Assembly: GCF_012272835.1 (NCBI RefSeq)
Contig: NZ_JAAWWK010000005.1
Coordinates: forward strand, 84,125-148,124
Reading direction: 5' to 3'
DNA length: 64,000 nt
Origin: Spongiibacter thalassae
Lineage (GTDB): Bacteria; Pseudomonadota; Gammaproteobacteria; Pseudomonadales; Spongiibacteraceae
A program made the position numbers and the translations under genes. Below, piece by piece: positions 47,549 to 63,382 of the stretch; the first letter of the stretch is position 1; every line of letters begins with the position of its first letter. The notes under the pieces are model-generated. The model made no database searches. It was not told the DNA's origin and saw nothing but the letters and a program-made list of their open reading frames with translations.

Positions 47549-49846
47549 TCAGAACTCATACTGCACACTCAACTGAGCATTCCTCCGATCCCCAATATAC
47601 GCAAACGAGCCACTGCGATATGCCGTCAGGTAGTAGTCCTCGTCGCTTACGTTACCAATATTCAAACGAGTGCTCAGCTGCTCGTTAAAGCGGTAGCTGG
47701 CAAACAGGTCGAACACGGTATAGCTGGGCACGCTGCGCTCCTCGTTGGCGGCGCTGTCGGGCTGGCCGACAAAGGCTTCGCTGGAGTAGGTGGCGGTTGC
47801 CCCGACCGAGAAGGCGTCAACCGGCTGGTAGCGCAGTTGCAGGAACAGGCTCTTGTCAGCGAAGTTCGCCAGGGTTTTGCCCTCGTTTGCAGGGTCAACG
47901 CTGTTGAGTATTTTGGCGTTCATCAGCGCGGCGCCAAACTGTGTGCTCAGGCGTGGAGTGATATTGCCGACCAGCGACACTTCCACGCCGTCTACGCGGT
48001 TTTTACCGGTGTTGAGTGTGCCGGTGGTGTCGTAGTCGGCACCTTCCATCACATCGTCTTTAGTGATCTGGAAGACGGCGGCGCTGGCCAATAGTTTGTT
48101 GTCGAGAATATTCCACTTGGTGCCCAGCTCCAGATTTTCCGTTTGCTCCGGCTTGCTCTGGTCAACCACGTCGCTACTGCCACACAGGCCGCCATAGCCG
48201 CAGTTGCCGCCAACGTCGGATTCGCCGCCGTTGATATTGGCGGAGCTGCTGTAGGTAAGGTAGACATTGGCGTCTTCGTTGATGTTGTAGACCAGACCGA
48301 TATGGCCGTTCCACAATTCATCGGAATAGGTGTAGTCAGAGACTACGCCACGGCTGTTAACGGTGTTGCTGTAGTCGAAGCTGTCCAGGCGCAGACCCAG
48401 AAATACACTCCAGTACTCACTCAGGTCGATGGTGTCCATTACCGCCAGCGATACGGTATCGATGCTGTAGTCGACATCGGCATCGCCACGGCTGATTTGA
48501 CGGCCCATCAAGGTATTGATATTGGAGACTTCGTTGCCGCTGGGGTCGATGATGCAATAGCTGTCCCTGGGGCCGCCGCGACCGCTGACCACACAGTTGG
48601 TGGCGCCGTTATTGGTGACGTTGTAATTGCCGTTTATTACATCGTGCTGGCTGTATTCTGCACTGAACAGCCATTGGTGCTGCTGCCCGGCGAGTTCGGT
48701 GTTCCAGTACAGGTTCAGTTGGTTGACGAAATAGTCCACCTCCTGCCAGCCCTGGTGGGTGCTGAGGCTGATGGTGGCCGCACCGGGGGCGTCGGGGTCG
48801 CTGGCGTCGCGATTGGTGCCGCGGGCGCCGGTGACGACGTAGCCGTTTTCGGTGGTGCCATAGCGGGTGGCGTTTTCCAGGCGCAGGGCGTCGTTAAAGG
48901 TGTAGCCGACACGCAGGGTCAGCGTTTGTACATCGGACTCCAGAAAGTCTTCGTTCTGACTGTACACAGGGATGGCGTCGTTGGCTTTGCCAGTGCTGCC
49001 ATCTATGTAGGAACCGAGGTCGGGCTGGTCGTCTGCGCTCAGGTAGTAAGCGTCGGCGGTGATGTCGAGACGTTCGCTGGCCTGGGTGGTGGCGGAAATT
49101 GCCGTGCCATTGCGTTCGCGGTCGGCGGGGGCGCGGTCGGGGACATCTTCATAGGCGTGCAGCACATTGACCCGCACCGCAGTGGTGTCGGATACCGGCT
49201 GGTTGCTGTCCAGAGTCACGCGGCGGTAATTGTCGGTACCCAGGCCCGCTTCAATCTTGTTAAAGCTGTAGTCGGTGCTCGCCTGCTTGGTAATGCTGTT
49301 GACCGCGCCGCCGGTGGAACCGCGTCCGGCAAAGGTCGAGCTGGGGCCCTTGGTGATTTCGATCTGTTCCACCGCAAAGCTCTCGCGGGTGGTCATGCCG
49401 GGGTCGCGCAGGCCATCGACGAACACATCGCTGCGGGCCTCGTGACCGCGAATCACATAGCGGTCGCCAAAGGCATTGCCGTTCTCACCGGTGCCCAGGG
49501 TAATACCGGGTTGGGCGGCGAGTATGTCCTTGAGGTCGGCACGGCCAGACTCCTGAATTTGTACCTGGGTTAATACCTGAATGGTTTGCGGAGTGTCGGC
49601 CAATGCTTTGACATGGCGGCGATCACCGGAAATGCGTGCCTTGTAGGGCGCGCCGGGCTCTGCGTAGGGGTTGGTGTCGAGGGTGCGTTCTTCCACCTGC
49701 AGAGTGTCCAGCTCAAAGGGTTCGTCGGCGGCCTGTTGCGCCAGGGCACTGCCGGTGATCAGTATGCTGCCCATGGTGAAGGCGCTGTGGGCGGCGCGAA
49801 AACGTCGTTTGCGCAAACTCAGCGCGGTGGCGGTGTTGTCAGTCAT
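47549..49846 (-). CDS. TonB-dependent siderophore receptor, PiuA/Fiu-like
   Basis: Outer-membrane receptor of 765 residues. A signal peptide (about 1-37, ending GSALAQQ) precedes the TonB-box/plug region with TPQTIQVLTQVQIQESG, DILAAQPGITLGTGENGN, YVIRGHEARSDVFVDGLRD and EQIEITKGPSSTFAGRGSTGG. A 22-strand barrel ends in LSVQYEF with the terminal Phe. The plug sequence resembles catecholate siderophore receptors (PiuA, Fiu), and the nearby piuC supports that. Excellent ribosome site AAGGAG before ATG 49846. Last gene of the exbB-exbD-exbD-tonB unit, 3 bases after tonB. Confidence 0.94.
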   Translation of the reverse strand: MTDNTATALSLRKRRFRAAHSAFTMGSILITGSALAQQAADEPFELDTLQVEERTLDTNPYAEPGAPYKARISGDRRHVKALADTPQTIQVLTQVQIQESGRADLKDILAAQPGITLGTGENGNAFGDRYVIRGHEARSDVFVDGLRDPGMTTRESFAVEQIEITKGPSSTFAGRGSTGGAVNSITKQASTDYSFNKIEAGLGTDNYRRVTLDSNQPVSDTTAVRVNVLHAYEDVPDRAPADRERNGTAISATTQASERLDITADAYYLSADDQPDLGSYIDGSTGKANDAIPVYSQNEDFLESDVQTLTLRVGYTFNDALRLENATRYGTTENGYVVTGARGTNRDASDPDAPGAATISLSTHQGWQEVDYFVNQLNLYWNTELAGQQHQWLFSAEYSQHDVINGNYNVTNNGATNCVVSGRGGPRDSYCIIDPSGNEVSNINTLMGRQISRGDADVDYSIDTVSLAVMDTIDLSEYWSVFLGLRLDSFDYSNTVNSRGVVSDYTYSDELWNGHIGLVYNINEDANVYLTYSSSANINGGESDVGGNCGYGGLCGSSDVVDQSKPEQTENLELGTKWNILDNKLLASAAVFQITKDDVMEGADYDTTGTLNTGKNRVDGVEVSLVGNITPRLSTQFGAALMNAKILNSVDPANEGKTLANFADKSLFLQLRYQPVDAFSVGATATYSSEAFVGQPDSAANEERSVPSYTVFDLFASYRFNEQLSTRLNIGNVSDEDYYLTAYRSGSFAYIGDRRNAQLSVQYEF

Positions 49847-49849
49847 GTC

Positions 49850-50653
49850 CTACTCCTTGAAAGAGGTGTTGGTAATTAAGGAAAACTCTATTGGTATAAC
49901 GATGCTTATCTGCTCGCGTCCGAGCTTGTCGGGTAGCGCGGGCACCGGACTGGCGGCGGCCAGCATGTCGAGTGCTGCCCGGTCCAGTAACGGATGGCCC
50001 GAGCTGGCGCGCAGCTGGGCATCGCTGATTTCTCCGTTGCGATGGATGGTGAACTGCAATTTCACAGTTCCCTCCTGCTTTTCTTTTTTTGCTGTTATGG
50101 GATAGGTTTTGTGCCGATTCAGCCAGGCGCTGAGTTCGGCAAAATAGCCCCGCGCGCCGCCTGCCTTGCCCCCGGCCTGGCGTTGCTCGCCGCTGCCGGT
50201 GGCGCGCTGCTGGTTTACCGTGGCGTCGGCGTCGGAGGTGTGCGGATTTGGCGACTCGGTTGCCCGGTTAGATTCCTTCCTTGGCGCGTCTTCTTCCACC
50301 GGTGTGGTGGCGCTATCGCGCTCGTTTGTCGTCGGCGCTTTCGGCTCGGCGGCGACCGCTGGCTGAGTGGCGGCCTGTGCAATAGGGGGTGCTTGTACCG
50401 ATTGGAGTGTCGGCGCTGGCACGGGGGCAGGCCGGGGCGCGGGTGGGCTTTCCGGTTTGGCGGGGGGAGTTGAGCGCGCCTGTAATTCGGCATAGGAGCC
50501 GGCCAGACCAATGCCGACATCCAGACCGTGGTCGCCATCGGCCTTTGCGCCCTCCGTGTTGTGCTCAGTGTGAGACAAAAGGGTGTTGGCCACGGCCAGA
50601 TGAATCAGTGCGGCGATACCGATGCTGAATGCCCAGGGTGCAGAGGTATTCAT
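49850..50653 (-). CDS. tonB: Energy transducer TonB
   Basis: TonB protein of 267 residues. It has a short cytoplasmic start, a membrane helix (WAFSIGIAALIHLAVANTLL), a long Pro/Ala/Glu-rich periplasmic spacer (about 60-165) and the C-terminal TonB domain (AWLNRHKTYPITAKKEKQEG; VKLQFTIHRNGEISDAQL; SSGHPLLDRAALDMLAAASP). It carries proton-motive energy from ExbBD to the receptor encoded next. Its ATG overlaps the exbD stop by 4 bases. Confidence 0.95.
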   Translation of the reverse strand: MNTSAPWAFSIGIAALIHLAVANTLLSHTEHNTEGAKADGDHGLDVGIGLAGSYAELQARSTPPAKPESPPAPRPAPVPAPTLQSVQAPPIAQAATQPAVAAEPKAPTTNERDSATTPVEEDAPRKESNRATESPNPHTSDADATVNQQRATGSGEQRQAGGKAGGARGYFAELSAWLNRHKTYPITAKKEKQEGTVKLQFTIHRNGEISDAQLRASSGHPLLDRAALDMLAAASPVPALPDKLGREQISIVIPIEFSLITNTSFKE

Positions 50654-51102
50654 TGCGCGGCCGTGTCCGATGAGCTGGAGTCTGCTTCTGTGAGCAGATG
50701 CAGGGTCAGGTTCTGCGCGGGCAGGCTGCTCAACACCGTCGATAACGCGGCGGCGGTAACTGCGCGGTCGGCGTAGAGCTTTACCTGCTGACCAGCTTCC
50801 AATGACGCGAGAGCCGCGCGCAGTTGCTTGTCGGCCACGGGGCTGCCATCAACCCAGATTTGTCCCTGAGCATTAAGGTGGATTGCCACCCTTGTTTGGT
50901 GAGACGCTGCGGGGGCTGCGTTGGTCGCGACACGGGCCAACTCCACCCCGGTGGGCGCGGCGGGGCGGAGTTGCCCGGCCACCATAAAAAAGACCAGCAA
51001 TAGAAAGACAATATTAATCAGTGGAATCAGGTTGTCGTCGCCCTGGTTTCGCCGCCGGGGTTGAACGATGGTCCCGCTTTCAGAAGACATCTCGCTGGTC
51101 AT
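50650..51102 (-). CDS. exbD: ExbD/TolR family protein, second copy
   Basis: Protein of 150 residues with one N-terminal membrane helix (NLIPLINIVFLLLVFFMVAG), preceded by a charged cytoplasmic end, and a periplasmic ExbD domain (VAIHLNAQGQIWVDGSPV). The proton-path Asp common at the start of the ExbD helix (LIDVVF in the neighbour) is replaced here by Asn (LINIVF). It overlaps both neighbours by 4 bases. Confidence 0.92.
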   Translation of the reverse strand: MTSEMSSESGTIVQPRRRNQGDDNLIPLINIVFLLLVFFMVAGQLRPAAPTGVELARVATNAAPAASHQTRVAIHLNAQGQIWVDGSPVADKQLRAALASLEAGQQVKLYADRAVTAAALSTVLSSLPAQNLTLHLLTEADSSSSDTAAQ

Positions 51103-51512
51103 AACCCGTCCTCTCCAGCAAGGGGGTGAGAGCGTCCGAGCAGCACCTTTACGCCCGCCGTTTGTAGGGCTGTCAGTGTTGTCACCATCTGTTGCAGGGA
51201 AACCTCGGGCGCGGGGAGCAGGGTGATGCTTTGCCGGGTGTCGATGCGGGCTAACAGGGTTTCCAGTGGAGCGTCCTGCCGTTGTTGGCCGCGTTGGTAG
51301 CTCATGGTGCTGTCGCTGTGAAGCAGCAGGAACTGCGGCGTAGTGCCGTTATCGACACCTCCCTCTCCAGCGAGTGCCAGAGGCAGGGCCTGCCAGCGGC
51401 TGAAGCTGCTCGTTAACATAAAAAACATCAGCAGAATGAACACCACGTCTATCAATGCTGTAAGGCTAATTGGTTTGGCTTTTCGTGCGGGGAGAAGTGT
51501 GGTCGTGCTCAT
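51099..51512 (-). CDS. exbD: ExbD/TolR family protein, first copy
   Basis: Protein of 137 residues. The membrane helix carries the conserved proton-accepting Asp in SLTALIDVVFILLMFFML. The periplasmic domain includes FLLLHSDSTMSYQRG and SITLLPAPEVSLQQMV. It lies between exbB and a second exbD with 4-base overlaps at both ends, so the complex may contain two different ExbD chains. Confidence 0.93.
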   Translation of the reverse strand: MSTTTLLPARKAKPISLTALIDVVFILLMFFMLTSSFSRWQALPLALAGEGGVDNGTTPQFLLLHSDSTMSYQRGQQRQDAPLETLLARIDTRQSITLLPAPEVSLQQMVTTLTALQTAGVKVLLGRSHPLAGEDGL

Positions 51513-52201
51513 GGTACGGCTACGGCATTGTGTGTTGTTTCCGGGGTTGGCGCGGTGGCCAGGGAGTTGCGCAGTTGCGGCTGGGCAGCATAGAGGCCGA
51601 GAAATCGTTCAAGGTCGTTTTGTAACGCCATGGTCTCGCGTTCGACTCGGCGCTCCAGCCAGCTGTGGGCGAGAGACACCGGAATAGCAACAAGCAAGCC
51701 GGCGGCGGTGGTCAACAGGGCCTGCCAGATGCCACCGGATAGAATGGCCGGATTTACCTGGCTCCCTGCGGCTTCCATTGCACGAAAAGCGTCGATCATA
51801 CCGAGTACGGTGCCGAGCAGACCCAATAGTGGTGCAAGATTGGCGATCACTTCGAGAATGCGCAGGTGACTGGCCATGTGCTGTGCGCTGAGGCGGGCCT
51901 GGCGCAGCAGTTCGTTGCGCAGCTCCGGTTGCGGGAGCGCGCCGCTCGCAGCGAGTGAAATCCCCGCTGACAGCAGTTGTGCGCGCGGGCCTTTGGGCGT
52001 GTTAAGCCGCATTTTGGCTTCGCGGTGTTTACCCTGGCCTAGCAGTGCGAACGCGGGGTCGGTATTGTCGCGGTGAACCCTGAATGCAATAAACAAGTGC
52101 CATAGTTTGTACAACACGGTACTCAGGGCGCACAGGGAGAACAGGCCAAGCACGACAATAACCGGGTCGGCTGCGACAAGGGTGGTGAGGGGGTTGGGCA
52201 T
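51509..52201 (-). CDS. exbB: MotA/TolQ/ExbB proton channel protein
   Basis: Inner-membrane protein of 230 residues with three helices: about 15-35 (VIVVLGLFSLCALSTVLYKL), about 118-140 and about 155-180. The conserved ExbB/TolQ core is ANLAPLLGLLGTVLGMIDAF and ALLTTAAGLLVAIPVSLAHSW. First gene of the exbB-exbD-exbD-tonB-receptor operon, immediately downstream of a Fur box. Confidence 0.95.
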   Translation of the reverse strand: MPNPLTTLVAADPVIVVLGLFSLCALSTVLYKLWHLFIAFRVHRDNTDPAFALLGQGKHREAKMRLNTPKGPRAQLLSAGISLAASGALPQPELRNELLRQARLSAQHMASHLRILEVIANLAPLLGLLGTVLGMIDAFRAMEAAGSQVNPAILSGGIWQALLTTAAGLLVAIPVSLAHSWLERRVERETMALQNDLERFLGLYAAQPQLRNSLATAPTPETTHNAVAVP

Positions 52202-52220
52202 GTTAATCTCTTGTGCGAAT

Positions 52221-52239
52221 GATAATAGTTCTCAATATT
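52221..52239 (-). promoter_or_regulatory. Putative Fur box upstream of exbB
   Basis: Read on the minus strand, the 19 bases AATATTGAGAACTATTATC match the Fur consensus at 14 of 19 positions. The site begins 19 bases before the exbB ATG, where binding would block transcription start or elongation. It predicts iron repression of the whole TonB system. Confidence 0.8.
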
Positions 52240-52646
52240 ATTCGTAATTGCGCGTTGGGGTCAAGGGCTCTGTAGAGCAGTCTTTTGCGAAAGACTGTGT
52301 TCATTGTGCGCTGGCCCTCATTGGTGTTGTCAGGGCGGGGAGAGTGATCGACAGTAAATGCGCGGGTGAACTAAAATGTGTCTTAGAGGTCACTGCTTAT
52401 GTAAGGCGCGTCACACGACCTTTGTGACATCAGTTCGCAGCCCGCTACAAGTAGCGCGGGATTAAGTTACTTGGAGTGTGTTTGCCTGCGATCTGTAGCG
52501 TCGACAGTTGAACTTGCAGAACGGTATGTTCTGACGGCCCTGACAACATCAATATTCAGAGCCGCGGCGATGTAACAGTCTCCTTATGCGAGACGTTGCC
52601 GACACTTCTATATATAGCGCCGTGGATGAAGGGCTATACCAACAAA
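52240..52646. other. Intergenic region between the TonB operon and the repeat-protein pair
   Basis: About 400 bases. The left end should hold the exbB promoter. The right part carries TATATATA at 52609-52616, a possible -10 element for the gene at 52690, without a convincing -35. A TGTGACATCAGTTCGCA stretch near 52424 weakly resembles a CRP half-site pattern. No gene seen. Confidence 0.35.
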
Positions 52647-52667
52647 ATATTCGGGAAACTCGAATAT
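52647..52667 (+). promoter_or_regulatory. 21-nt inverted repeat in the leader of repeat-protein gene 1
   Basis: Arms ATATTCG (52647-52653) and CGAATAT (52661-52667) enclose GGAAACT. The element ends 7 bases before the ribosome site GAGGAG. An equivalent element precedes the paralogous gene at the same distance, with its first base pair changed from A-T to G-C while pairing is kept. It may be an operator for a dimeric regulator or an RNA hairpin near the ribosome site. Confidence 0.75.
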
Positions 52668-52689
52668 GGATTTTGAGGAGTTACGAAAT

Positions 52690-53853
52690 ATGTCATTTCG
52701 CATAGCGAAAAACAGTTTGGCACTGGGTGTTTCACTGGTGATTTCCGGGATGAGTCACGCGCAGCTGGAGGCCTTGCCGGTTCCGACCGATGCGCTCGGG
52801 GGCGTACCTGGTATCGACGGTGCGGGCCTCGATGCCCTGCCAAGTCTTGATGCCCTGCCCACCGACGCACTGCCGGTGGATATTCTGGGTATGATCCCCT
52901 CTGGCGGTGGTGGCGGAGCGCCGTCGCCAGATGACCTGCCGGGTCTTGACGCTCTGCCAGGCGCCGATGCGCTACCGGGGCCAGAGGCCCTTCCAGCTGA
53001 TGTGCTCAGCATGATTCCCGCTGGCAATGAAGAAGGCGAAGATGGTGAAGGTGAACAGGGTGGCGATGCGCCGTCACTGGATGCGCTGCCTGGTCCTGAT
53101 GCCTTACCTGGAGCCGACGCACTGCCGGTGGATGTTCTGGGCATGATTCCCTCTGGCGGTGATGGCGGTGCGCCGTCGCCTGATGCGTTGCCCGGCCCGG
53201 ACGCTTTGCCGGGCCTTGATGCCTTGCCCGGAGCTGATGCACTGCCGGTGGATGTTCTGGGTATGATTCCCTCCGGCGGTGGCGGCGGAGCGCCGTCGCC
53301 CGATGCACTGCCTGGTGCTGATGCCCTGCCTGGCCCCGACGATCTTCCCGCGCCGAGTGGGGGTGGTGGCGATGCGCCTGCGCTGCCTGGTCAGGAGATC
53401 GTTGAACAATATATTCAGGAATACCAGGCCTATCTCGACCCGGCCAAGGTCGATATGGTCGCGGGTGCCGTGCAGAACTTTGTCAATGTAGTGGCTGCCG
53501 ACCCGACCGTGCTGGCCAATTCCGGGTCGTCACTCACACCTGAATTGATTTTGCAGATGTTCCCGGTGCTGGGAGTGATGCAGGATGATCCGGCAGCCTT
53601 GCCCGCTTATTTCGCTGAAGGGGGAACCCTGGTGAACCCGACGATTGCCATTGTGCCTCCGGCGCCTCTGGTAAATCGTTCAGCGCCAATGCCAGAAGGT
53701 GGCGGTGGCCTTCCCCTGGGCTCGCCTTCGATGGACAGTGGCGACGATGAAGAAGCTCTGCCCGCTCCCAGCGCAGACGCTCTGCCTGTAGATGTTGCGG
53801 GCATGCTTCCCGAGGGCGAACTGCCTGGTCCTGAAGCGCTTCCTGCACCCTAA
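52690..53853 (+). CDS. Secreted Ala-Leu-Pro repeat protein, paralogue 1
   Basis: Unrecognised protein of 387 residues from ATG 52690 (GAGGAG 9 bases upstream). A signal peptide (about 1-24, ending MSHAQ) is followed by about 215 residues of low-complexity repeats built on DALPG. A larger unit DALPVDVLGMIPSGG recurs about four times, with one Glu-rich insert (GNEEGEDGEGEQGG). Then comes a non-repetitive domain (about 235-330; EYQAYLDPAKVDMVAGAVQN, AADPTVLANSGSS, TPELILQMFPVL, AEGGTLVNPT) and a short acidic Pro-rich tail. The protein has almost no Lys or Arg after the signal peptide, so it is strongly acidic. It is likely exported; it could be a surface, matrix or calcium-binding protein, but no function can be claimed. 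Confidence 0.85.
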   Translation: MSFRIAKNSLALGVSLVISGMSHAQLEALPVPTDALGGVPGIDGAGLDALPSLDALPTDALPVDILGMIPSGGGGGAPSPDDLPGLDALPGADALPGPEALPADVLSMIPAGNEEGEDGEGEQGGDAPSLDALPGPDALPGADALPVDVLGMIPSGGDGGAPSPDALPGPDALPGLDALPGADALPVDVLGMIPSGGGGGAPSPDALPGADALPGPDDLPAPSGGGGDAPALPGQEIVEQYIQEYQAYLDPAKVDMVAGAVQNFVNVVAADPTVLANSGSSLTPELILQMFPVLGVMQDDPAALPAYFAEGGTLVNPTIAIVPPAPLVNRSAPMPEGGGGLPLGSPSMDSGDDEEALPAPSADALPVDVAGMLPEGELPGPEALPAP

Positions 53854-53894
53854 CTAATAGACTAAACCGCAATTGCGGTGTCTGTTGCAATGCT

Positions 53895-53922
53895 ACGGCC
53901 CGGACTCTCCGGGCCGTTTTTT
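53895..53922 (+). terminator. Rho-independent terminator after paralogue 1
   Basis: Stem CGGCCCGG (53896-53903) / CCGGGCCG (53909-53916) with a 5-base loop, followed by TTTTTT. It lies 42 bases after the stop, so the two paralogues are separate transcription units. Confidence 0.92.
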
Positions 53923-54228
53923 ATCAAGCCTTTTCCCTTTTCGCCGCGTTTGTTTTTCTCGTGGACTCTGCGTTTACCTCCTCTCTCTATCGCAACAAGT
54001 GATGTGCGTCACTTTTTGTCGTGCAAATTTTGTGGGCCAGCGCTCATAACGTCGCCCGATAGGTAGAAGTGCGTATGGGAATACGCTTCTTTCCTTAGTA
54101 GTTTCAGCAATGTCACATTCACTGCTATGTGAACCGCTACATAAAAATTTGCTCTGCCGCGATTGGCTACATGCGCACGACTCCGTTGAAAAGAGAGTTG
54201 GCGTGACGAATCGTTAACGGGCTGGAGA

Positions 54229-54249
54229 GTATTCGGAAATTTCGAATAC
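54229..54249 (+). promoter_or_regulatory. 21-nt inverted repeat in the leader of repeat-protein gene 2
   Basis: Arms GTATTCG (54229-54235) and CGAATAC (54243-54249) enclose GAAATTT; the ribosome site GAGGAG starts 6 bases later. It differs from the element ahead of paralogue 1 by a compensatory outer base pair and by loop changes, while the core ATTCGG-AAA-T-CGAAT is kept. The rest of the 416-base gap before this gene holds the terminator of paralogue 1 and presumably a promoter; nothing else is seen. Confidence 0.75.
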
Positions 54250-54269
54250 AACTACGAGGAGCTACAACC

Positions 54270-55493
54270 ATGTTAATTCGCAAAGCAAAAACCAGCTTGG
54301 CGTTCGGTATTACCCTGGCAATTTCCGGTTTGAGTCACGCCCAGCTTGGCGGCTTACCTATTCCTACCGACGCTTTGGGTGCTGTTCCCGGCGTTGGCGC
54401 ACTGCCTGGTCTGGGCGCGCTGCCCAGTCTCGACAGCTTACCCCTCGATGCGCTGGGCGGAGCGGGTCTGCCCAGCCTGGATGGCCTGCCGGTTCCCGGA
54501 CTGGATGCGCTGCCTATTCCCAGTGGCGGTGGTCTGCCCGGGCTTGATGCCTTGCCGGTAGATCCAACATCGCTGCTCAGTGGTGGTTTGCCGAGTCTGC
54601 CAGGAGTGGGAGCCTTGCCGGTAGACCCAACGTCGCTGTTGAGCGGGGGCTTGCCAAGCCTTCCCGGAACTGGAGCCTTGCCTGTTGATCCTGCGTCGCT
54701 AGCCTTGCCTGTTGATCCTACGTCGATAGCGTTGCTGGGTGATGTGCCGGGCCTGGACATTATCATGGTCTATGTGAATGAATATCAGGCCTATCTCGAC
54801 CCCGCCAAGGCAACTCAAATTGCCGGAGCGGTGCAAACCTTTGTTGAAACGATTGCCGCCGATCCTACAGTATTGGCCAACTCCGGGTCGTCGATTACCC
54901 CGGAATTGATACTGTCGATGCTGCCGGTGCTTGAGCAATTGGCGAATGACCCCGCCGGGCTGGCCAATTATTTTGCCAACGGCGGCACTCTGGTGAACCC
55001 CACCATTTCGCTGGTGCCACCACTGCCGCTGGTGAGTCGCTCATTGCCGAACGTGTCGGGCGGTGGTTTGCCCAGCCTGCCAGGTGCAGGTTCGTTGCCG
55101 GTTGATCCAACGTCCTTGCTGGGTGGCGGCGTACCGAGCCTGCCTGGTGTAGGTTCGTTGCCCGTTGATCCGACGTCCTTGCTGGGCGGTGGCCTGCCCA
55201 GCTTACCTGGCCTTGGCGCATTGCCGGTAGACCCGACATCATTGCTGGGTGGCGGCGTACCAAGCTTGCCCCTGGGTGCCTTGCCAGTTGACCCGCTGTC
55301 TTTGCTTGGCGGTGGCCTGCCCAGCCTGCCTGGCCTTGGTGCGCTGCCAGTAGACCCGACGTCGCTGTTGGGCGGCGGTGTACCCAGCCTGCCGGGTTTG
55401 GGTGCCTTGCCGGTTGATCCCACTTCGCTGCTGGCAGGTGGTTTACCCTCCCTCCCAGGAACAGGCGCTCTGCCTGTCGGTCTCCCGCTGTAA
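54270..55493 (+). CDS. Secreted Ala-Leu-Pro repeat protein, paralogue 2
   Basis: Unrecognised protein of 407 residues. The signal peptide (about 1-25, LAFGITLAISGLSHAQ) and the following LPIPTDALGAVPG align with paralogue 1. Repeats of about 21 residues, type GGLPSLPGVGALPVDPTSLL, occur about three times before and about seven times after the shared domain (about 170-265; EYQAYLDPAKATQIAGAVQT, AADPTVLANSGSS, TPELILSMLPVL, ANGGTLVNPT). The domain is thus embedded in repeats, whereas in paralogue 1 most repeats precede it. Charged residues are nearly confined to Asp. Ribosome site GAGGAG lies 8 bases before ATG. Function unknown. Confidence 0.86.
   Translation: MLIRKAKTSLAFGITLAISGLSHAQLGGLPIPTDALGAVPGVGALPGLGALPSLDSLPLDALGGAGLPSLDGLPVPGLDALPIPSGGGLPGLDALPVDPTSLLSGGLPSLPGVGALPVDPTSLLSGGLPSLPGTGALPVDPASLALPVDPTSIALLGDVPGLDIIMVYVNEYQAYLDPAKATQIAGAVQTFVETIAADPTVLANSGSSITPELILSMLPVLEQLANDPAGLANYFANGGTLVNPTISLVPPLPLVSRSLPNVSGGGLPSLPGAGSLPVDPTSLLGGGVPSLPGVGSLPVDPTSLLGGGLPSLPGLGALPVDPTSLLGGGVPSLPLGALPVDPLSLLGGGLPSLPGLGALPVDPTSLLGGGVPSLPGLGALPVDPTSLLAGGLPSLPGTGALPVGLPL
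55062..55480 (+). repeat. Tandem 60-63 bp coding repeats in paralogue 2
   Basis: About seven copies of a unit encoding PSLPG-x-G-x-LPVDPTSLLGGG. Copies differ at third positions and in a few residues (one lacks a codon), so they are old enough to have drifted but still similar enough to recombine. A shorter set (about three units) lies at 54570-54710. Confidence 0.85.
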
Positions 55494-55520
55494 ATCAGGC
55501 TGATGCCTTGATTCTTGTTT

Positions 55521-55542
55521 GCCCGGCTTGCCGGGCTTTTTT
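55521..55542 (+). terminator. Rho-independent terminator after paralogue 2
   Basis: Stem GCCCGG (55521-55526) / CCGGGC (55531-55536) with loop CTTG and six T. It ends transcription 28 bases after the stop codon, just before the convergent P450 gene. Confidence 0.92.
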
Positions 55543-55611
55543 ATGCCCTTTGCAAGGGGACGGTGCACATTCGCCTTGAGATGAATAATGGCGCTCGCCA
55601 TTCCTGACAGC

Positions 55612-56853
55612 TCAGGTGTGGACCGGTAAGGCCTCCAGCCAGCGGTGTCCGGCACGCTGGGTCCATCGGCTGTTGGGTTGACTCAAACGGAGCGTGTGCG
55701 GCTGCGCCGCTAGGGCGCGCAGACTGGCGGCAAGCAGCTGCCTCACCAGTTGACGTCCGACGCAGCTGTGTTCTCCCCGGCCAAAGCTTATCGGGGCTGG
55801 ACCACTGCGCAGGGGGTTGATCTCGTCGGCTTGATCGAAAACCCGAGGGTCGCGATTGCCCGCTGCAAGCATGAGAAATACCCCTCGGTTTTTCTCGATA
55901 ACGGTATCGCCAATGCTTACTGCCTCAGAAGTGCGTCGAGCGATAAACAGGGTGGGCGAGTCGAAACGCAGCAGTTCGTCGGCGAGGTCCAGTGCGCGAT
56001 AGCGCTGTTCACGCAGCCCGGTGAGCAGCTCCGGTTGCAGAATACAGTGGCGCAGCGCATTGCCAATCCCGTGGTCGCTATTAAGGCCATCGGCGATCAG
56101 CAGCAGGGTATTGTCGCGAATAAAACCGGTGGGTGAGGTGAACTCGCCGAGGTCGGCACCTTCCAGCACAGACATTAAAGGCGACGTAGATGTCGTGTGC
56201 AGCGTCTCGGCAAAATGGCGAAAGTCCGTCAATTCGCGGTTGAGGGTGTCGCGAACCTCCTCAGAGGGAATAATGGAGAACAGATAGAAAAAGGTTTCCG
56301 ACCAACGCTTCAGTTGCTTTGCGAGCGCGGGGTCGGCGTTGAATCCGAGAAGTTTACCCATGATCTCAGCGCAGAGGGGGGTGGCGAAGTCGTGTAGCAC
56401 ATCGAACTCGCGTCGCGCCATCAGTGCCTGTAGCCGTGTCTGGGCCAATGCTTCAATATCAATGGCGCAATCGCGCAATAGCTGATGAAAGCCGCGGGTT
56501 AATGCTGCTCGGGGCAGGGTGTGCTGCGGCGCATCGAGGAAGGGCAGAATATTATTGGCAACATCGGCGCACACCTGGCTGTGTCGGTGGCGCTGGTGCA
56601 CCACCGCGTAGTCCGAGGGGCTATTGCACAGGTGTGGGTGAGCCAGCGCCTCCTGAATATCGTTATAGCGGCTGATTACCCAGCTGCCATTATCCAGGGG
56701 AAATGCGGCGCTGTGTTCACGCAGGGCGCTCAGATAGGGAAATGGGTCGTTGATAAAGGTTGGATCGAAGGGCGAAAACCCTGTCAGATCAATAGATTCA
56801 GCTGGCCCGCGCGGTGCGCGTCGCGACCAGCGATGACGTAAGCGTTTTAGCAT
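55612..56853 (-). CDS. Cytochrome P450
   Basis: Soluble bacterial P450 of 413 residues. The haem-ligand loop ISFGRGEHSCVGRQLVRQ gives the axial Cys near residue 358. The K-helix ExxR is in ADELLRFDSPTLFIARR. The I-helix LLLIADGLNSDHGIGNAL lacks the usual acid-Thr pair for oxygen activation. The ATG at 56853 shares one base with the amidohydrolase stop (TGATG), so it is the coupled last gene of the biosynthetic operon. It probably oxidises the pathway intermediate, perhaps while bound to the carrier domain. No ferredoxin gene is nearby. Confidence 0.93.
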   Translation of the reverse strand: MLKRLRHRWSRRAPRGPAESIDLTGFSPFDPTFINDPFPYLSALREHSAAFPLDNGSWVISRYNDIQEALAHPHLCNSPSDYAVVHQRHRHSQVCADVANNILPFLDAPQHTLPRAALTRGFHQLLRDCAIDIEALAQTRLQALMARREFDVLHDFATPLCAEIMGKLLGFNADPALAKQLKRWSETFFYLFSIIPSEEVRDTLNRELTDFRHFAETLHTTSTSPLMSVLEGADLGEFTSPTGFIRDNTLLLIADGLNSDHGIGNALRHCILQPELLTGLREQRYRALDLADELLRFDSPTLFIARRTSEAVSIGDTVIEKNRGVFLMLAAGNRDPRVFDQADEINPLRSGPAPISFGRGEHSCVGRQLVRQLLAASLRALAAQPHTLRLSQPNSRWTQRAGHRWLEALPVHT

Positions 56854-57959
56854 CAAGCTGTGACCACTTTGCGGATTTCGCCGTTGTTGCGCTCAAGGTG
56901 ATCGGCGATATGCTCGCGCTCTGCACTGTTGAGCGCGGTACCCGTGGCCAGTTTGGCGAGGATTTCGGGATGGTAGAAACGAATTGCGGCGGAAAGAACA
57001 AAGACCTCGTCGATCAGATCGGCGGTGGTGCTCGGCGAGCAAATGTCGGCAATATTGTCTGAGGCGAGGCGTACCGGCACGCCGGCAACCAGCAACTCCA
57101 GCACCCGGGGAATACTGTTGTAGGTGGGCGTGTTGATGGGTCGCAGCTGACGCATGCCCAGTGCTGCCGACGGGCAGCAGATAACACCCACTCCAAACTC
57201 CTTCATGCCTTCTGTCAACGCAGTAAAACGCCCGTCGTCGTAGGTCGAGGGCGAAATCATATGCACCGCCCACACCAGCGTGTCGTCTCCTTGTGGGCCA
57301 CCGTAGCGAGCCAGGGCTTCGATCAACTGCTCTGTGCCGGTTTCCGATGGCTCGTTGCGCTGGTCGGTGTGAACATGAATCATGCACTGTTTGTGGCGGG
57401 CCAGTTCAAGGGTGCGGCGCAGGTGTTCATCAAAGCCGATATGCCTGGGATACTCGCGGCGATCATCGGCTTCGGGCAGGGCCGCAATAAAGTCGGCGGA
57501 CTCGGCACCTTCGGCGAAGACTTCCCACATTTCCGGGTGGCTATCGTCGAAGCCAAAGGGCGAGTAGGCGGCGATATTCAGGTCTATTTCGTCGGCGCGC
57601 TGACGCTTGATGTCCTGCATCATTGCCAGTGCGCGCAAGCCAATAGCATCGGCGGTAACATCGACAAGGGTGTCTGCGCGGCGGGTGTTGACCTCTACCA
57701 TGTGATCGAGATACAGGTTCACCCGTCGATGGAAGTCGGCTTCACTATAGGCGGGGCTGGCGTGCAGGTTGTTGATCAGGCTGTGTTTTTCGTGCAGAGA
57801 CACATGCGAGCTTGCCAGTACGTGGCTGTTGTCCACGGTGAGGTAGTGTTCGTCGGTGGTGCCTGCACGATCCAGATGAAGGTGGGCGTTGTGCATCCCC
57901 CCTGTCTTGGCAATATGGTGTTCCAGTTCAATATAAAAAGGCGAGCGGCGATGAGACAT
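56853..57959 (-). CDS. Amidohydrolase-superfamily enzyme, cytosine-deaminase-like
   Basis: Metal-dependent hydrolase of 368 residues. The metal motifs are visible in order: HxH in NAHLHLDRAG, His in MIHVHTDQRNE, His in WAVHMISPS and Asp in LASDNIADIC. The arrangement is closest to cytosine deaminase and related amidohydrolases. It probably opens or removes an amide, amidine or imino group in the pathway product; the substrate is unknown. CAGGAG lies 7 bases before ATG 57959, inside the end of the adenylation gene, one base after its stop. Confidence 0.88.
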   Translation of the reverse strand: MSHRRSPFYIELEHHIAKTGGMHNAHLHLDRAGTTDEHYLTVDNSHVLASSHVSLHEKHSLINNLHASPAYSEADFHRRVNLYLDHMVEVNTRRADTLVDVTADAIGLRALAMMQDIKRQRADEIDLNIAAYSPFGFDDSHPEMWEVFAEGAESADFIAALPEADDRREYPRHIGFDEHLRRTLELARHKQCMIHVHTDQRNEPSETGTEQLIEALARYGGPQGDDTLVWAVHMISPSTYDDGRFTALTEGMKEFGVGVICCPSAALGMRQLRPINTPTYNSIPRVLELLVAGVPVRLASDNIADICSPSTTADLIDEVFVLSAAIRFYHPEILAKLATGTALNSAEREHIADHLERNNGEIRKVVTA

Positions 57960-57960
57960 A

Positions 57961-60921
57961 TTAATGCTCCTGAGTGGCGGTCGCTGGCGGGCGCAGTTGT
58001 GGGGAAAAATGCCGGCCGCCGTACACGACCAGGCAGGGAAGTTGGCACAGGGTCGAGCCGGATTCAGCGAAGAAAATCAGACCCTCACAGGCGACATCCA
58101 GTTCGAGGTACCAGCGCCCTATTCGGGTTGGCGCGGTGACTGTCATGGCAATGATGGCGTCGCTGCCGGGGCTGATTGGGTGTGTGAGTTCGGCGACTCC
58201 TGCCTTCCAGTCCCTTACCCGTCCACTGCCCTGCCGCCGCCAGCGCGCGTAAAGCCGCAAGCCGCTGCGGTGTCCGGGGAGCCAGCACTGGTCGCTGCGA
58301 TTGGCCACGGCAACCTGCAGGCAAACGCTTTGCCCTGGAGAAAGTGTCGCAGGTAAAGTGGCCTGAATATCAGCCTGGCGGGCGGACTCCGGCGGATACT
58401 CGGGCAAAGTGCTGTCTGTCAGGGGCAGGCCATTGGCGGAGGGGAGGCCACGGCGGGCGGCGGCGATTTCTGCACGGAGTATTTCTCCCAGCGACTCCAC
58501 GCAGGGTGACGCCATAAATGACCGGTGCTTCCATTTTCTGCGATAGCAGCTTACCTCGCCGGAATACAGGGTAGGCCAAAGGGTTTGCGGTTGGTCAAAA
58601 CGACGAAACGGGCTGTGGCTGCTGTGTTCGCTGAAGACATAACAGAGGCGGCCATCGTAGGGCTCGGCGATAAAACGCTCGACGGCCATCAGCAGGCAGA
58701 CTTCTTCGCCCCGTTCACGCAGTGCCTCGGCGATATAAAAAGCGAAGCAGGCCCCTTCGCAGAAGCCGCCCAGCACGTAGGGGCCGCAAGCTTGTAGTTG
58801 TTGTACTTCATCGCAGTAATAGCGCGCCAGCGCACGGTTGCTGCGGGTGTCTTTGTTGTTCACCCTGAACAGCGAGCGAAACCCGTAGATTGGCTGGTCA
58901 CTGGAAAACTGCGCGCAAAAACCGGAAAACTCCTCATAGGATTGGCAGCCCCAGAAAACAGGGGGTTGCGAGCCCCGGGTGTTCACCCCCACCAGCAGGC
59001 TTTGCGACCCTTGTCGCTTGCCTTGCCAGCCGGCGAGATAGCCGGACAGCTCCCGCAACATGGTTTGGGGAAAGTCGGCGGATAGTGCAGGGTGACAGGC
59101 AAGGCTGTCGTCGGGCAGGGCCGTGAGCAGGGCTTGTTCAAGAGCCACCAGCGTCGGATTGTCGAACAGCAGGGCAGGGGGGATGGCGACGCCGAGCATG
59201 TCAGACAGTGTGGCCATCAAGGTTGCCGCTTTGAGTGAGTCGCCGCCAAGGTCAAAAAAGTTCGCATCGATATCGGCGTTGCTGAGCGTTACGCCCAGAG
59301 ACTGTTGCCACAGGGGGCGCAGCTGCTCACCCAGTGGGCCAAGTTGGTTTGTCGGGGAGGTACTTCTGACGGTGGGTATGAACTGTTCACGCAGTCGATG
59401 GCGTTGGACCTTACCGCTGGCGTTTTTGGGCAGGCTATCAACCTGGAAAATGTGTCGCGGAATTTTATAGGCTGCCAGTTGCTCCCCTAAAACCTGGTGG
59501 ATCAGCTCGGTGTCCACGGGCTTTTCGGCAACCACTGCGAGGGCGGGTTCCTCTCCCAGGCTGGGGTGAGGCAAGGCGAAACAGGCTGCATCGCTAACAC
59601 TTGCGATGGTTTGAAGTGGAATTTCAACTTCCAGTGGCGAGAATTTCTCCCCGCCGCGGTTGATAAGTTCCTTGATGCGTCCGGTGAGAAATAGTCGCCC
59701 GGCGTCGTCGACATAGCCCTGGTCGCCGCTGCGAAACCAGCCATCGATAAACACGCCATCCTGCTGCGTGGTTGACTCGCCACCGAGGTAGCCGGCAAAC
59801 ACGTGTTCGCCGCGAATCAGCACCTCGCCGCGGGTGCCTGTTGGCAGGGGCTTGCCGAGAGTATCGGCAATGCGTACCGCAGTGGCCACCGGTGTGCCCA
59901 CCGACGCCGGCACCTGCGTTCCTTCCTCAACGGGGTTGCTGCAAATCAAACCGCAGGTTTCGGTCATGCCGTAAATTTCAACAATCGGCACGCCAAAGCC
60001 CCGGCGGAGTTGGGCGAGCTGGGCGGGCAACAATGGCGCCGACACCGAGCGCACAAATCGCAGCTTGCGAAAGGGCGTGAGGGTGTCCGGGGCGTCTGTA
60101 CGACTGTACTCCAGCAACATGGTGGGCACGCCCTGCAGCCAGGTAACAGGTGACGTGGCCAGCAGTTTGCGCACCGCCAAGCGCTCCGTGTGACTGCTGA
60201 GGACGACACTGCCGCCCACGCTCAAGGGGGCGAGCAGGACATCCATGAGTCCACCAATATGAAATAGCGGCAGCAGATTCAGCGCGCAATCCTTGTCGCT
60301 GAGACGCAGCGACATCACCGTACGGCGAATCGCAGAAAGCAGCATGGTGTGGCTGAGGGCTACCGCTTTTGCGCGCCCGGTGGAGCCGGAGGTATGCAGA
60401 ACCAGAGCAGTGTCAACGCGGAGAACGGTGGAAACAGGTGGAGAGCGAAAAGCAGGCGTTGGAGGCAATAAGTGAAAGCTGCCACTCGGCCCGGCTCGAG
60501 CCTCGAGCAGTGCATGGGGAATCGCACTGAGCAGTGAGCTTTTGTCTAATTTCGCGCGCAGAATGGTGTCGGTGATAATCAGTGTTGGCCGCAAGGGGTC
60601 GAGCTGTTGCTCCAGCTCCGGGTTTGTCGCAACCGGGTTGAGGGGAATGCATTGGTATCGCCGCATTAAGGCCAGGCATAACAGGGCGTTTTGTGGCGAC
60701 TGCGGTAACAGCACCGCAACCGCACTGGGGGCAGGAATATTCCAGCCCGCAAGTGTCTCATCCACATAGCGGCACAACTGCGCCAGCTGCGTGAAACTGA
60801 GCGGTGGGCTATCGCCGGTGAGTACGGCGGGGAGATGGCCAAATTCTCGGCAAGCATCTTCCATGAGATTGCAGATAGAATTGCGGTGCATGACAAAAGG
60901 TATTAACGCGGTCCTGCGCAT
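57961..60921 (-). CDS. One-module adenylation / carrier / thioesterase protein
   Basis: NRPS-like protein of 986 residues. The adenylation domain (about 10-515) has LVLHTSGSTGRAKAVALSH, IYGMTETCGL, WFRSGDQGYVDDAGRLFLTG, LINRGGEKFSPLEVE and PKNASGKVQR; its style is nearer to acyl-CoA synthetases than to amino-acid A domains. The carrier domain (about 535-610) has Ser562 in FFDLGGDSLKAA for phosphopantetheine. The thioesterase-like domain (about 640-850) has GGFCEGACFAF, with Cys721 where Ser is usual. A C-terminal beta-sandwich (about 860-970; VAVANRSDQCWLPGHRSGL) resembles the NBR1-type FW fold. There is no condensation domain, so a single acid is activated, modified on the carrier and released. 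Other in-frame ATGs follow the chosen start. Confidence 0.9.
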   Translation of the reverse strand: MRRTALIPFVMHRNSICNLMEDACREFGHLPAVLTGDSPPLSFTQLAQLCRYVDETLAGWNIPAPSAVAVLLPQSPQNALLCLALMRRYQCIPLNPVATNPELEQQLDPLRPTLIITDTILRAKLDKSSLLSAIPHALLEARAGPSGSFHLLPPTPAFRSPPVSTVLRVDTALVLHTSGSTGRAKAVALSHTMLLSAIRRTVMSLRLSDKDCALNLLPLFHIGGLMDVLLAPLSVGGSVVLSSHTERLAVRKLLATSPVTWLQGVPTMLLEYSRTDAPDTLTPFRKLRFVRSVSAPLLPAQLAQLRRGFGVPIVEIYGMTETCGLICSNPVEEGTQVPASVGTPVATAVRIADTLGKPLPTGTRGEVLIRGEHVFAGYLGGESTTQQDGVFIDGWFRSGDQGYVDDAGRLFLTGRIKELINRGGEKFSPLEVEIPLQTIASVSDAACFALPHPSLGEEPALAVVAEKPVDTELIHQVLGEQLAAYKIPRHIFQVDSLPKNASGKVQRHRLREQFIPTVRSTSPTNQLGPLGEQLRPLWQQSLGVTLSNADIDANFFDLGGDSLKAATLMATLSDMLGVAIPPALLFDNPTLVALEQALLTALPDDSLACHPALSADFPQTMLRELSGYLAGWQGKRQGSQSLLVGVNTRGSQPPVFWGCQSYEEFSGFCAQFSSDQPIYGFRSLFRVNNKDTRSNRALARYYCDEVQQLQACGPYVLGGFCEGACFAFYIAEALRERGEEVCLLMAVERFIAEPYDGRLCYVFSEHSSHSPFRRFDQPQTLWPTLYSGEVSCYRRKWKHRSFMASPCVESLGEILRAEIAAARRGLPSANGLPLTDSTLPEYPPESARQADIQATLPATLSPGQSVCLQVAVANRSDQCWLPGHRSGLRLYARWRRQGSGRVRDWKAGVAELTHPISPGSDAIIAMTVTAPTRIGRWYLELDVACEGLIFFAESGSTLCQLPCLVVYGGRHFSPQLRPPATATQEH

Positions 60922-61009
60922 CGTTGTTTAGGGTAGATTTTGACACCCGCTCAGCATCCTGCAAGCCCTGCCTGCCGCATTGCGGGAAATTTACCCAAAC
61001 ATCGCTGGC

Positions 61010-61717
61010 TTAGCGCCTGAGCATAACCGCCGTGAGTACCCCGTCGTCGAGGAGGCAGTAATCCACCTTCACGGTGTGCGGGCAAGCAGGATGTCGCTGT
61101 AGCTGATGGGAAAGCGTGAAATGCAGCTGGCGAGTGGTGCAATCCAATGCGGTTAATTCCGCTTCACGGTAACCAAAAAATCGCTGAACATGAGGGTGAA
61201 AGGCTTTATAAATGCTTTCCTTGGCGGAAAACACCAAACTCAGACCCTCGGCGAGCGGCACATCGGATTCGGTTAGCAGGGTTTTCTCGCCGGGTGATAA
61301 AATTCGGCGGCTCAGCCTCGGCGCGCTTTCTTCGCTGATCCACGCCTGGGCGTCAATGCCCAGCGCCAGGTAGTGTTCGGCGCGGGCGAGTGCGCAACAG
61401 GCAAAGTCGTCGGTGTGGCTGATGCTGCCGACAAAGCCCTTTGGCCAAACCGGGCCGCGCTTGTTGTTGCTGCGCAGCGTCACATTGTCCAGGCCAAAGC
61501 GGGCAAAGGCCCGTGCGGCGAGATAGCGCCCGGCAAAATATTCTGCCTGACGCTTTTCTACTGCCTGGGAGATATTGTCGGGTTGATAAATGCCGTAGTC
61601 GGCGAAGAGTTTTTTATCAAAACGGCTGAGCGCAAAGCGCGCGCCGAGAATAGCTAACGGCGCGGGTGGCGATAACTCGTCGAGCCCAACAGTCTGTAAA
61701 AACCTTCCAATCTCCAT
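61010..61717 (-). CDS. 4'-phosphopantetheinyl transferase, EntD/Sfp type
   Basis: Enzyme of 235 residues that would activate the carrier domain encoded next. Motifs: FVGSISHTDDFACCAL, the metal-binding ALGIDAQAW and FSAKESIYKAFHP. The N-terminus matches EntD-type enzymes (PLAILGARFALSRFD; KRQAEYFAGRYLAARAF). The frame extends to TTG 61735, but ATG 61717, five bases after the arsH stop, is preferred. Its place between arsH and the carrier gene indicates a dedicated role in this pathway, though such enzymes can also serve others. Confidence 0.93.
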   Translation of the reverse strand: MEIGRFLQTVGLDELSPPAPLAILGARFALSRFDKKLFADYGIYQPDNISQAVEKRQAEYFAGRYLAARAFARFGLDNVTLRSNNKRGPVWPKGFVGSISHTDDFACCALARAEHYLALGIDAQAWISEESAPRLSRRILSPGEKTLLTESDVPLAEGLSLVFSAKESIYKAFHPHVQRFFGYREAELTALDCTTRQLHFTLSHQLQRHPACPHTVKVDYCLLDDGVLTAVMLRR

Positions 61718-61721
61718 CGGC

Positions 61722-62426
61722 TCAGCGCTGCGCAACGCGCTTGCTTTGTTCCTCGGCGGTTTCGACCCGCTCGGAATAGCGGTCTACGAAATACTCTTTG
61801 CGATCGCGCAACAGCAACGTGAACTTCATCAGCTCTTCCATCACATCCACCACACGGTTGTAATACGACGAGGGTTTCATGCGGTCGTTGTCGTCAAACT
61901 CCAACCAGGCCTTGGCCACCGACGATTGGTTGGGGATGGTCACCATACGCATCCAGCGGCCGAGCACCCGCAACTGATTCACCGCGTTAAACGACTGTGA
62001 ACCGCCGGAAACCTGCATTACTGCCAGCGTTTTGCCCTGGGTGGGTCGCACTGCGCCAATTGCCAGCGGAATCCAGTCGATCTGCGCCTTCATAATGCCG
62101 GTCATCGCGCCGTGCCGCTCGGGAGAGCACCACACCATGCCCTCTGCCCACTCCGCCAACTGCCGCAACTCTTGAACCTTGGGGTGAGAGGCATCCTCGG
62201 CATCCGGCAACGGCAGGCCCCGAGGGTCGAAAATACGGGTTTCCGCGCCAAAATGCTCCAGCAGGCGCGCCGCTTCCTGAGTGAGCAAACGGCTAAACGA
62301 CCGCTCCCGCAGTGAACCGTAAAGCAGCAAAATACGTGGAGGGTGAGTGGATGAAGGCGCGGCAAACAGGGCCTCGCGGTCAATGTCGTGCAGAGAATCC
62401 GCCTGAATATTGGGTAGATCAGTCAT
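61722..62426 (-). CDS. arsH: NADPH-dependent FMN reductase, ArsH type
   Basis: Flavodoxin-like reductase of 234 residues. Typical ArsH segments: [51 protein letters not shown] and the C-terminal [21 protein letters not shown]. ArsH oxidises methylarsenite or reduces quinones and flavins. No other arsenic gene is seen around it; it heads the biosynthetic operon and could supply reduced flavin or electrons for the P450. Its end is 4 bases before the transferase ATG. Confidence 0.93.
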
Positions 62427-62595: not shown

Positions 62596-62895
62596 ATGCT
62601 GAATGCAAGTCAGGTTCCAGACTGGACAGTCGGTGACAGCATAGAAGAATGGTGGTCTGAGATGGCCGGGCAGGGAGTGGCTTTTCATCCAGATGATATG
62701 CCAGACACGATAGTGTTCCAGGATAGTGGCAGGTCGTGTTTTGGCACAGACGCGTGCACGAAGCTGGAGCGAATACTGTCGAGTATGCTGAATATTCATG
62801 GCGACGAGGTTTATGACGTCGGGCAGGCTGCCATCATGGGTATGCTGGGCTGGGCGGAGTCGCCGGATAAGTCTGAATGGGTCAGGTCTGGCTAA
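62596..62895 (+). CDS. Small acidic protein of unknown function
   Basis: Protein of 99 residues beginning MLNASQVPDWTVGDSIEEWW, rich in Asp, Glu and Trp, without membrane or signal features. AAGGAGGGG 7 bases before ATG 62596 is the strongest ribosome site in this part of the window, which makes a real gene likely. No homologue is recognised. Its 3' end overlaps vsr by 4 bases tail to tail. It could be a regulator or an immunity or antitoxin-type protein of the restriction locus; that is a guess. Confidence 0.7.
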   Translation: MLNASQVPDWTVGDSIEEWWSEMAGQGVAFHPDDMPDTIVFQDSGRSCFGTDACTKLERILSSMLNIHGDEVYDVGQAAIMGMLGWAESPDKSEWVRSG

Positions 62896-63353
62896 TCCGG
62901 AGTTCTCCCGGTGATTTCGGCGTCCATCGTGTCGAACTGTATCCAGCGGGTGGTGGTTTCAATTACCTGCTCCAGGCCCAGTCGAGTTTTCCCTTTTAAA
63001 GAGCACTCCCAGATTGTCAGTGTTTTCCAACCCAGACGCCGGTATTGCGCGATGTTTCGTTGGTCGCGAAGTTTGTTTTCGGTGATTTTTTTGTGCCAAA
63101 ACTCCTTGCGCGTAGACGGCCATTTGAACAGGTGACAGTCGTGGCAGTGCCAAAAGCAACCATTTAATAAAACTATTGCGGAGTACTTAGGGAGCACAAG
63201 ATCGGGTTTGCCTGGCAGTCGTTTGTAATGCAAACAGTAGCGAAATCCTCGTTTATGCAAAGCCAAGCGAATCTGCAATTCAGGCTTGGTGTCTTTTCCG
63301 CGAATGCCGGACATCATGCGTAAACGGGTTTGAGAATTGACAGTGTCAGTCAT
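62892..63353 (-). CDS. vsr: Very short patch repair endonuclease Vsr
   Basis: Nicking endonuclease of 153 residues that starts repair of T:G mismatches arising from deaminated 5-methylcytosine. Family motifs: TRLRMMSGIRGKDTKPELQI, YRLPGKPDLVLP-type segment (YKRLPGKPDLVLPKYSAIVL), NGCFWHCHDCHLFKWP and FWHKKITENKLRD, with zinc-binding Cys/His. It sits beside an EcoRII-type nuclease, matching the CCWGG methylation context in which Vsr normally works. Confidence 0.95.
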   Translation of the reverse strand: MTDTVNSQTRLRMMSGIRGKDTKPELQIRLALHKRGFRYCLHYKRLPGKPDLVLPKYSAIVLLNGCFWHCHDCHLFKWPSTRKEFWHKKITENKLRDQRNIAQYRRLGWKTLTIWECSLKGKTRLGLEQVIETTTRWIQFDTMDAEITGRTPD

Positions 63354-63382
63354 ATTTTCATTGGTGGGTCGCTCGGGGATGG

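Follow-up and report, generated by a model that had tools for sequence, protein, structure and literature searches.

SusD-type and other surface lipoproteins are partners of TonB-dependent transporters. Here we describe two adjacent genes, orfA and orfB, which share an apparently undescribed domain and represent a protein family whose members are, in the majority of cases, encoded immediately beside a TonB-dependent receptor. They lie in a stretch of 64,000 nucleotides from Spongiibacter thalassae (assembly GCF_012272835.1, contig NZ_JAAWWK010000005.1, positions 84,125 to 148,124), called the window below, whose genome belongs to the genus Zhongshania. Like the SusD-type partners, the family has an exported protein encoded beside a TonB-dependent receptor and a proposed function in substrate capture; this gene position is found in 33 of the 49 relatives, and orfA and orfB have it only by way of a neighbouring operon. 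The family differs in that neither orfA nor orfB (at E up to 10) nor any of the 36 members searched matches a SusD-family profile, in that no lipid-anchor cysteine is present (none in mature orfA, mature orfB or the 49 relatives) and in that most members are short.

Two other described systems concern alkanes. Marinobacter AupA and AupB are an alkane uptake pair in which AupA is FadL-like and AupB is an inner-membrane protein (PMC5989066). The likeness to the present family lies in a two-gene unit comprising an outer-membrane protein and a partner, in a copy number that reaches six in some genomes and in an origin from marine hydrocarbon users. As far as the extracts of the published description go, the two are set apart by the outer-membrane protein, here a TonB-dependent receptor (Plug domain in 7/7 cases, not FadL-like), and by the partner, here an exported protein. 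The OmpS-type receptors of alkane degraders are TonB-dependent and tied to alkane sensing and uptake, and the extracts of their description with which the family was compared mention no comparable exported companion (PMC6304351). The same source calls the mechanism of long-chain alkane transport unclear.

The two genes and the domain that they share are placed as follows.

52690-53853, plus strand: orfA, repeat protein of 387 residues with the shared domain, export predicted (open frame, ATG at 52690)
53383-53697, plus strand: shared domain in orfA
54270-55493, plus strand: orfB, repeat protein of 407 residues with the shared domain, export predicted (open frame, ATG at 54270)
54738-55049, plus strand: shared domain in orfB

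A GAGGAG-type ribosome site, identified by eye, precedes each gene. An alternative, longer start exists for orfA at 52666; the signal peptide and the similarity to orfB argue for the start at 52690. Both signal peptides, again judged by eye, end in SHAQ, and both mature proteins begin with P-T-D-A-L-G-x-V-P-G, followed by repeats and then by the domain. The whole proteins match each other in BLASTP at 4e-65, a score to which the repeats contribute, while the domain alone (about 100 residues) is 68% identical. Over 102 codons of the domain, pN is 0.22 and pS 0.67, giving a dN/dS of about 0.16; the domain is therefore conserved as a protein. An earlier note, written from the nucleotide sequence of the window, had described two adjacent genes with signal peptides, a common mature motif PTDALG-VPG and a shared region of about 95 residues, and all of this holds for the two open frames of 387 and 407 codons. 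It had also remarked on a near absence of lysine, arginine and cysteine, and each mature protein indeed contains one lysine, one arginine and no cysteine. Histidine and tryptophan are likewise absent and other aromatic residues scarce. The acidic composition it proposed fits orfA best (aspartate plus glutamate, 15.4% of the mature part) and orfB less well (6.5%).

Neither orfA nor orfB matched any Pfam family at E up to 10, and the sole NCBIfam match of orfA was a stray 14-residue hit to PsaC (16.9 bits against a cut-off of 130.65). When 36 members were searched, matches were limited to three unrelated families in Pfam (best E 0.11) and six in NCBIfam (best E 0.0015), with one or two members each; these weak single matches were taken as chance, each being confined to one or two members. 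The domain profile found no match among solved structures (best E 0.99), and two AlphaFold models had mean pLDDT values of 53 and 38, too low to use. The domain is absent from the curated families searched and, by this measure, is undescribed, in agreement with the earlier note, which had recognised no family. A literature search, in which subscription journals are sparsely covered, found no description of this protein family and none joining Zhongshania with the term TonB-dependent.

Relatives are numerous in the genus. Below, L numbers denote loci and G numbers genomes; the genome samples contain one genome per species. With the orfB domain alone as a query, matches were obtained in 16 of 18 Zhongshania genomes, with orfA recovered at 3.3e-41. 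A profile search with the shared domain had been suggested in the earlier note. The profile used (A2), of 36 rows including the orfA and orfB domains and with about 82 core positions, located 52 places in 17/18 Zhongshania genomes, one to six per positive genome. These include orfB (E 2.1e-25) and orfA (E 1.0e-24), both of which are rows of the profile, together with one 54-residue fragment and two weak matches (E 3.9e-5 and 3.6e-4). The profile matched 11 of 293 genomes in the order sample, all Zhongshania (one of 118 genera), and none of the three genomes of the other genus in the family sample. In the class sample two of 369 genomes matched at E 0.01, that of the window itself and G341, where the frame contains an internal stop and was rejected as a relative. 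The phylum sample gave three matches among 398 genomes, one again being the genome of the window and the other two marginal and set aside. One of these two (G930, E 0.0018) is a frame of 149 residues without a signal peptide, as judged by eye; the other (G842, E 0.0055) was discarded as marginal. A scan of a public genome collection with both window domains, which may omit near records, found no relative. Within these samples, the evidence that the domain family is restricted to Zhongshania is strong, if not absolute. The 54-residue frame carries a partial domain directly after an intact member (L034:7396-7530; G003:C13:306395-306529) and is perhaps a decayed copy. A similar domain piece of 41 residues adjoins the counterpart in G010 (E 0.0017).

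Neighbouring genes were listed for 50 relatives using a simple open-frame caller and BLAST clustering. A TonB-dependent receptor is the immediate neighbour in 33 of 49 relatives, a count which omits the 54-residue fragment and does not score L106 as positive, where a regulator-like frame lies between (the raw script count gave 35/50 immediate neighbours and 40/50 within 3 kb). In 29 of the 33 receptor-linked cases the two genes are on the same strand, the member's frame starting at most 174 nucleotides downstream of the receptor; the other four are divergent. This distance is counted to where the frame opens and not to its ATG, and the frames overlap in two cases; at L101 the stretch ends within the receptor frame. 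One receptor-linked member, L077, is that of Z. marina ZX-21. As many of the rows are orthologous, loci were grouped by shared neighbours. An immediate receptor occurs in 10 of 21 synteny groups, or in 9 of 20 if L100 is merged into its probable group, with p of 2e-8 and 2e-7, respectively, at a chance rate of 5%. This rate is generous: from 35 to at least 54 receptors were scored per genome, with up to 92 candidates at first look, and 92 receptors in about 3,900 genes (an estimate) would make 4.7% of genes receptor neighbours. In Pfam searches all of seven representative receptors contained the Plug domain and six of them the barrel also. The receptor linkage holds for the family as a whole and is the strongest new fact; it points to a role in uptake.

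Most members are simpler than the proteins of the window. The predicted length is 121-205 residues in 30 of the 34 first relatives, and the domain match ends no more than six residues from the C-terminus in 35 of 51 members. The sequence that leads from the signal peptide to the domain varies among members and often includes an IPVLG-LLGGG-like motif; mean column identity is 14% when whole proteins are aligned and 40% within the domain. Low charge is retained throughout: the mature parts of the 49 relatives have a median of 0.9% lysine plus arginine (range 0-3.2%) and not a single cysteine. Repeat expansion has occurred several times (orfA, orfB, L021 and L097, the last with the unit IPVVGGLLGGDLLGGG), and the repeats of these four differ in period. 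Long repeats are a variable add-on and not a common feature of the family. In orfB, a repeat-finding program detected two arrays:

54549-54700, plus strand: shorter array of 63-nucleotide repeats on the N-terminal side of the orfB domain
55058-55448, plus strand: 63-nucleotide (21-residue) tandem repeats on the C-terminal side of the orfB domain

These surround the domain, as the earlier note had reported for one of the proteins. In orfA the program detects short arrays only (for example, 3.4 copies of an 18-nucleotide unit at 53179-53240), and repetition of longer period is visible by eye.

A tree of the 51 domains leaves 11 of its 48 inner branches unresolved. It places orfA and orfB as sisters (support 100/98), in keeping with the divergence after duplication which had been proposed for them, and L021, L022 and L023 join them (99/97). 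By eye, L022 lies between a thioesterase-like and a transferase-like gene, and L023 between genes of equal sizes. Look-alikes of both genes flanking L022 border the window region (43573-44010 and 61010-61735), the latter being a phosphopantetheinyl transferase according to Pfam. L022 and L023 therefore look like positional counterparts of the window pair, which itself looks like a later tandem duplication. On this evidence orfA and orfB are best described as tandem paralogues, repeat-expanded members of the Zhongshania domain family.

We also considered 20 loci with receptors related to that of L049 and no known member (L108-L127; 17 in the genus and three outside), scoring at most three receptors per genome and viewing frames of at least 70 residues by eye. 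A similar-looking protein occurs straight after the receptor in five loci (L108, L109, L114, L116 and L121) and farther from it in two (L117 and L119); the remaining 13, including all three outside the genus, show none. The five receptor-adjacent proteins gave no convincing match to the domain profile (best E 2.9). After about residue 35 they have zero to three lysines plus arginines and no cysteine, and L, G, P, A, V, D and S make up 72-86% of their residues. As a control, none of 238 other frames of 110-300 residues near family members combines at most 3.2% lysine plus arginine with an absence of cysteine, the median lysine plus arginine being 9.8%. It is conceivable, if rather doubtful, that Zhongshania possesses a class of exported, nearly uncharged Leu/Gly/Pro/Ala-rich receptor partners, of which the domain family would be one branch, and that these act as traps for hydrophobic substrates tuned by repeat expansion.

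Some clues to the substrate come from other genes at the family loci. The P450 at L047 scores 814 bits to 6hqd and 611 bits to CYP153A7 (3rwl); P450, SnoaL-like and desaturase-like proteins occur at L049 and L037, and a PF10118 hydrolase is present at a family locus. Aldehyde dehydrogenase-like, ferredoxin-like and CoA-pathway genes were recognised by eye at some loci. In Thalassolituus and Alcanivorax, TonB-dependent receptors have been implicated in the uptake of alkanes (PMC6304351), and Zhongshania is named in the abstract of a paper on oil degradation in the Labrador Sea (PMC8478444). Given the oxidation genes and the link of TonB-dependent receptors with alkanes elsewhere, a hydrophobic substrate, hydrocarbon- or lipid-like, is plausible.

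The explanation that we favour, tentatively and with somewhat more doubt than confidence, is that the family provides an exported partner for TonB-dependent uptake, plausibly of hydrophobic substrates. The position of orfA and orfB next to an ExbB-ExbD-ExbD-TonB-receptor operon fits this reading. Export, predicted from signal peptides recognised by eye (and proposed in the earlier note), would bring a low-charge, hydrophobic protein to a place where it could bind or concentrate a poorly soluble substrate. The bound substrate would then be handed to the TonB-dependent receptor or, if the protein is located on the periplasmic side, taken over there, the direction of action presumably being inward in both cases. 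The subclade of orfA and orfB may keep this role in a free-standing form, its repeats giving more binding or spacer units.

A number of observations weigh against this explanation. No immediate receptor is present in 16 of the 49 relatives; L022 and L023 have none in the 18 kb fetched for each, and that of L021 is distant (112 bits to the L049 receptor), convergent and 506 bp away. When 32 pairs are compared, without L101, receptor divergence correlates with domain divergence (r 0.78). The correlation is non-significant once each synteny group contributes a single pair (10 pairs, r 0.24, p 0.06), and also in a looser set of 12 pairs in which two groups are counted twice (r 0.15, p 0.12). The 17 Zhongshania loci with L049-related receptors described above have no family member alongside. 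With regard to the substrate, P450 genes are common genome-wide (5-25 in every genome), and a Pfam search at 1e-4 gave nothing for the ferredoxin-like frame of L049. The window pair itself lies outside any receptor operon, the nearest gene on that side being exbB of a divergent operon, identified with Pfam:

47549-52201, minus strand: TonB-dependent receptor (47549-49846), TonB (49850-50653), ExbD (50650-51102), ExbD (51099-51512) and ExbB (51509-52201)

The receptor of this operon shows no alignment over 150 residues with that of L049, scores at most 71.6 bits to any of 65 other receptors compared and falls outside the usual receptor clade of the family; a functional link of the operon to orfA and orfB would have to be drawn from their proximity. 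The uptake explanation appears weakest for orfA and orfB, whose subclade with L021-L023 is repeat-expanded and free-standing.

It is for this repeat-rich subclade in particular that a second explanation is a live rival, ranking next although we consider it unlikely: that the proteins form extracellular matrix, surface-layer or adhesion material coating the cell or the biofilm, the domain serving as an anchoring or assembly module. Several expansions of repeats of unlike period (orfA, orfB, L021 and L097) recall structural proteins, and the subclade is free-standing. The shortness of most of the first relatives (30/34 with 121-205 residues) does not suit such a role, and linkage to receptors would be unexpected for matrix proteins. 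The earlier note had inferred a matrix, scaffold, calcium-binding or surface-layer function, for which we found no positive evidence: there is no matrix, adhesin or S-layer family among the Pfam and NCBIfam matches of orfA, orfB and the members, and no calcium-binding RTX-type repeat profile was matched in Pfam, NCBIfam giving only the stray 14-residue hit to another family.

The position straight after the receptor on the same strand, seen in 29 of 49 relatives, would also suit a periplasmic protein that assembles, plugs or regulates the receptor and binds no substrate of its own. We regard this as improbable in view of the free-standing subclade, the strong variation outside the domain and the 17 loci of the genus where related receptors do without a family member. 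Less probable still, in our estimation, is an iron-linked role, in which the window pair would carry or bind the siderophore that the neighbouring receptor serves. The adjoining receptor-TonB-ExbD-ExbD-ExbB operon is in its favour, as are genes downstream: the row at 55612-61735 encodes a P450, a protein without a Pfam match, an adenylation-carrier-thioesterase protein and a phosphopantetheinyl transferase, and is possibly a small non-ribosomal synthesis cluster near the receptor-TonB operon. L022 and L023, however, lack that operon, while the thioesterase-like and transferase genes on either side of them are apparently the same, so that the association of the pair with the operon looks non-ancestral, and the lack of cysteine, histidine and tryptophan in the mature proteins, with few other aromatic residues, also speaks against such a role.

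The window pair carries in addition a sequence element of its own upstream of each start:

52647-52667, no strand assigned: palindrome ATATTCG-N7-CGAATAT, 5' of orfA, 22 nucleotides to the ATG
54229-54249, no strand assigned: palindrome GTATTCG-N7-CGAATAC, 5' of orfB, 20 nucleotides to the ATG

The outer pair differs between the two copies and is changed on both arms, while the flanking upstream DNA is less similar between orfA and orfB. The exact core TATTCG-N7-CGAATA occurs twice in the 4.4-Mb genome, at just these two sites, where about 0.1-0.3 occurrences are expected. As RNA, each palindrome would form a nine-pair hairpin, with z scores of -4.8 and -5.1 over 25 nucleotides and only -1.7 and -2.0 over 54-56 nucleotides. 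As a family-wide mark the palindrome was rejected: with exact arms of at least seven nucleotides, no copy occurs within 150 nucleotides of the predicted starts of the 50 relatives. It is therefore a mark of orfA and orfB, presumably serving as operator or as leader hairpin.

Terminator-like sites follow both genes, each a G+C-rich stem with a T run; the number of such sites in the region (five) is not above that in shuffled sequence (mean 4.1):

53895-53917, plus strand: terminator-like site 3' of orfA
55521-55536, plus strand: terminator-like site 3' of orfB

Sigma-70-like promoter matches within 52150-55700 number seven against a shuffle mean of 1.3, and two of those on the plus strand lie 5' of orfA (52348-52377 and 52501-52530). 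An AT-rich stretch at 52210-52250, 5' of the exbB operon, resembles a Fur box by eye. Elsewhere in the window, a cobalamin riboswitch (29636-29892, 94.3 bits) overlaps the called start of a very long frame (29833-34347) that looks like a cobaltochelatase subunit by eye and whose true start is probably further down. The segment 38001-42000 has a G+C content of 48-51%, against about 59% on either side, contains several frames of unknown kind and is possibly acquired. At 62892-63928, where G+C is also lower (49.6%), frames resembling a Vsr-type repair endonuclease and a restriction enzyme were noted by eye.

The family is real and conserved, its proteins are apparently exported, and none of the libraries searched describes it. 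The transfer of long hydrocarbons across the outer membrane of bacteria is poorly understood, and the family ties concrete genes to receptors by gene order. Should its role prove to be a different one, this linkage would still have to be explained. The family also contributes an undescribed domain of defined taxonomic range, together with repeat expansions that form a natural series. If the wider class of receptor partners is general, composition, and not the domain, would be the common feature.

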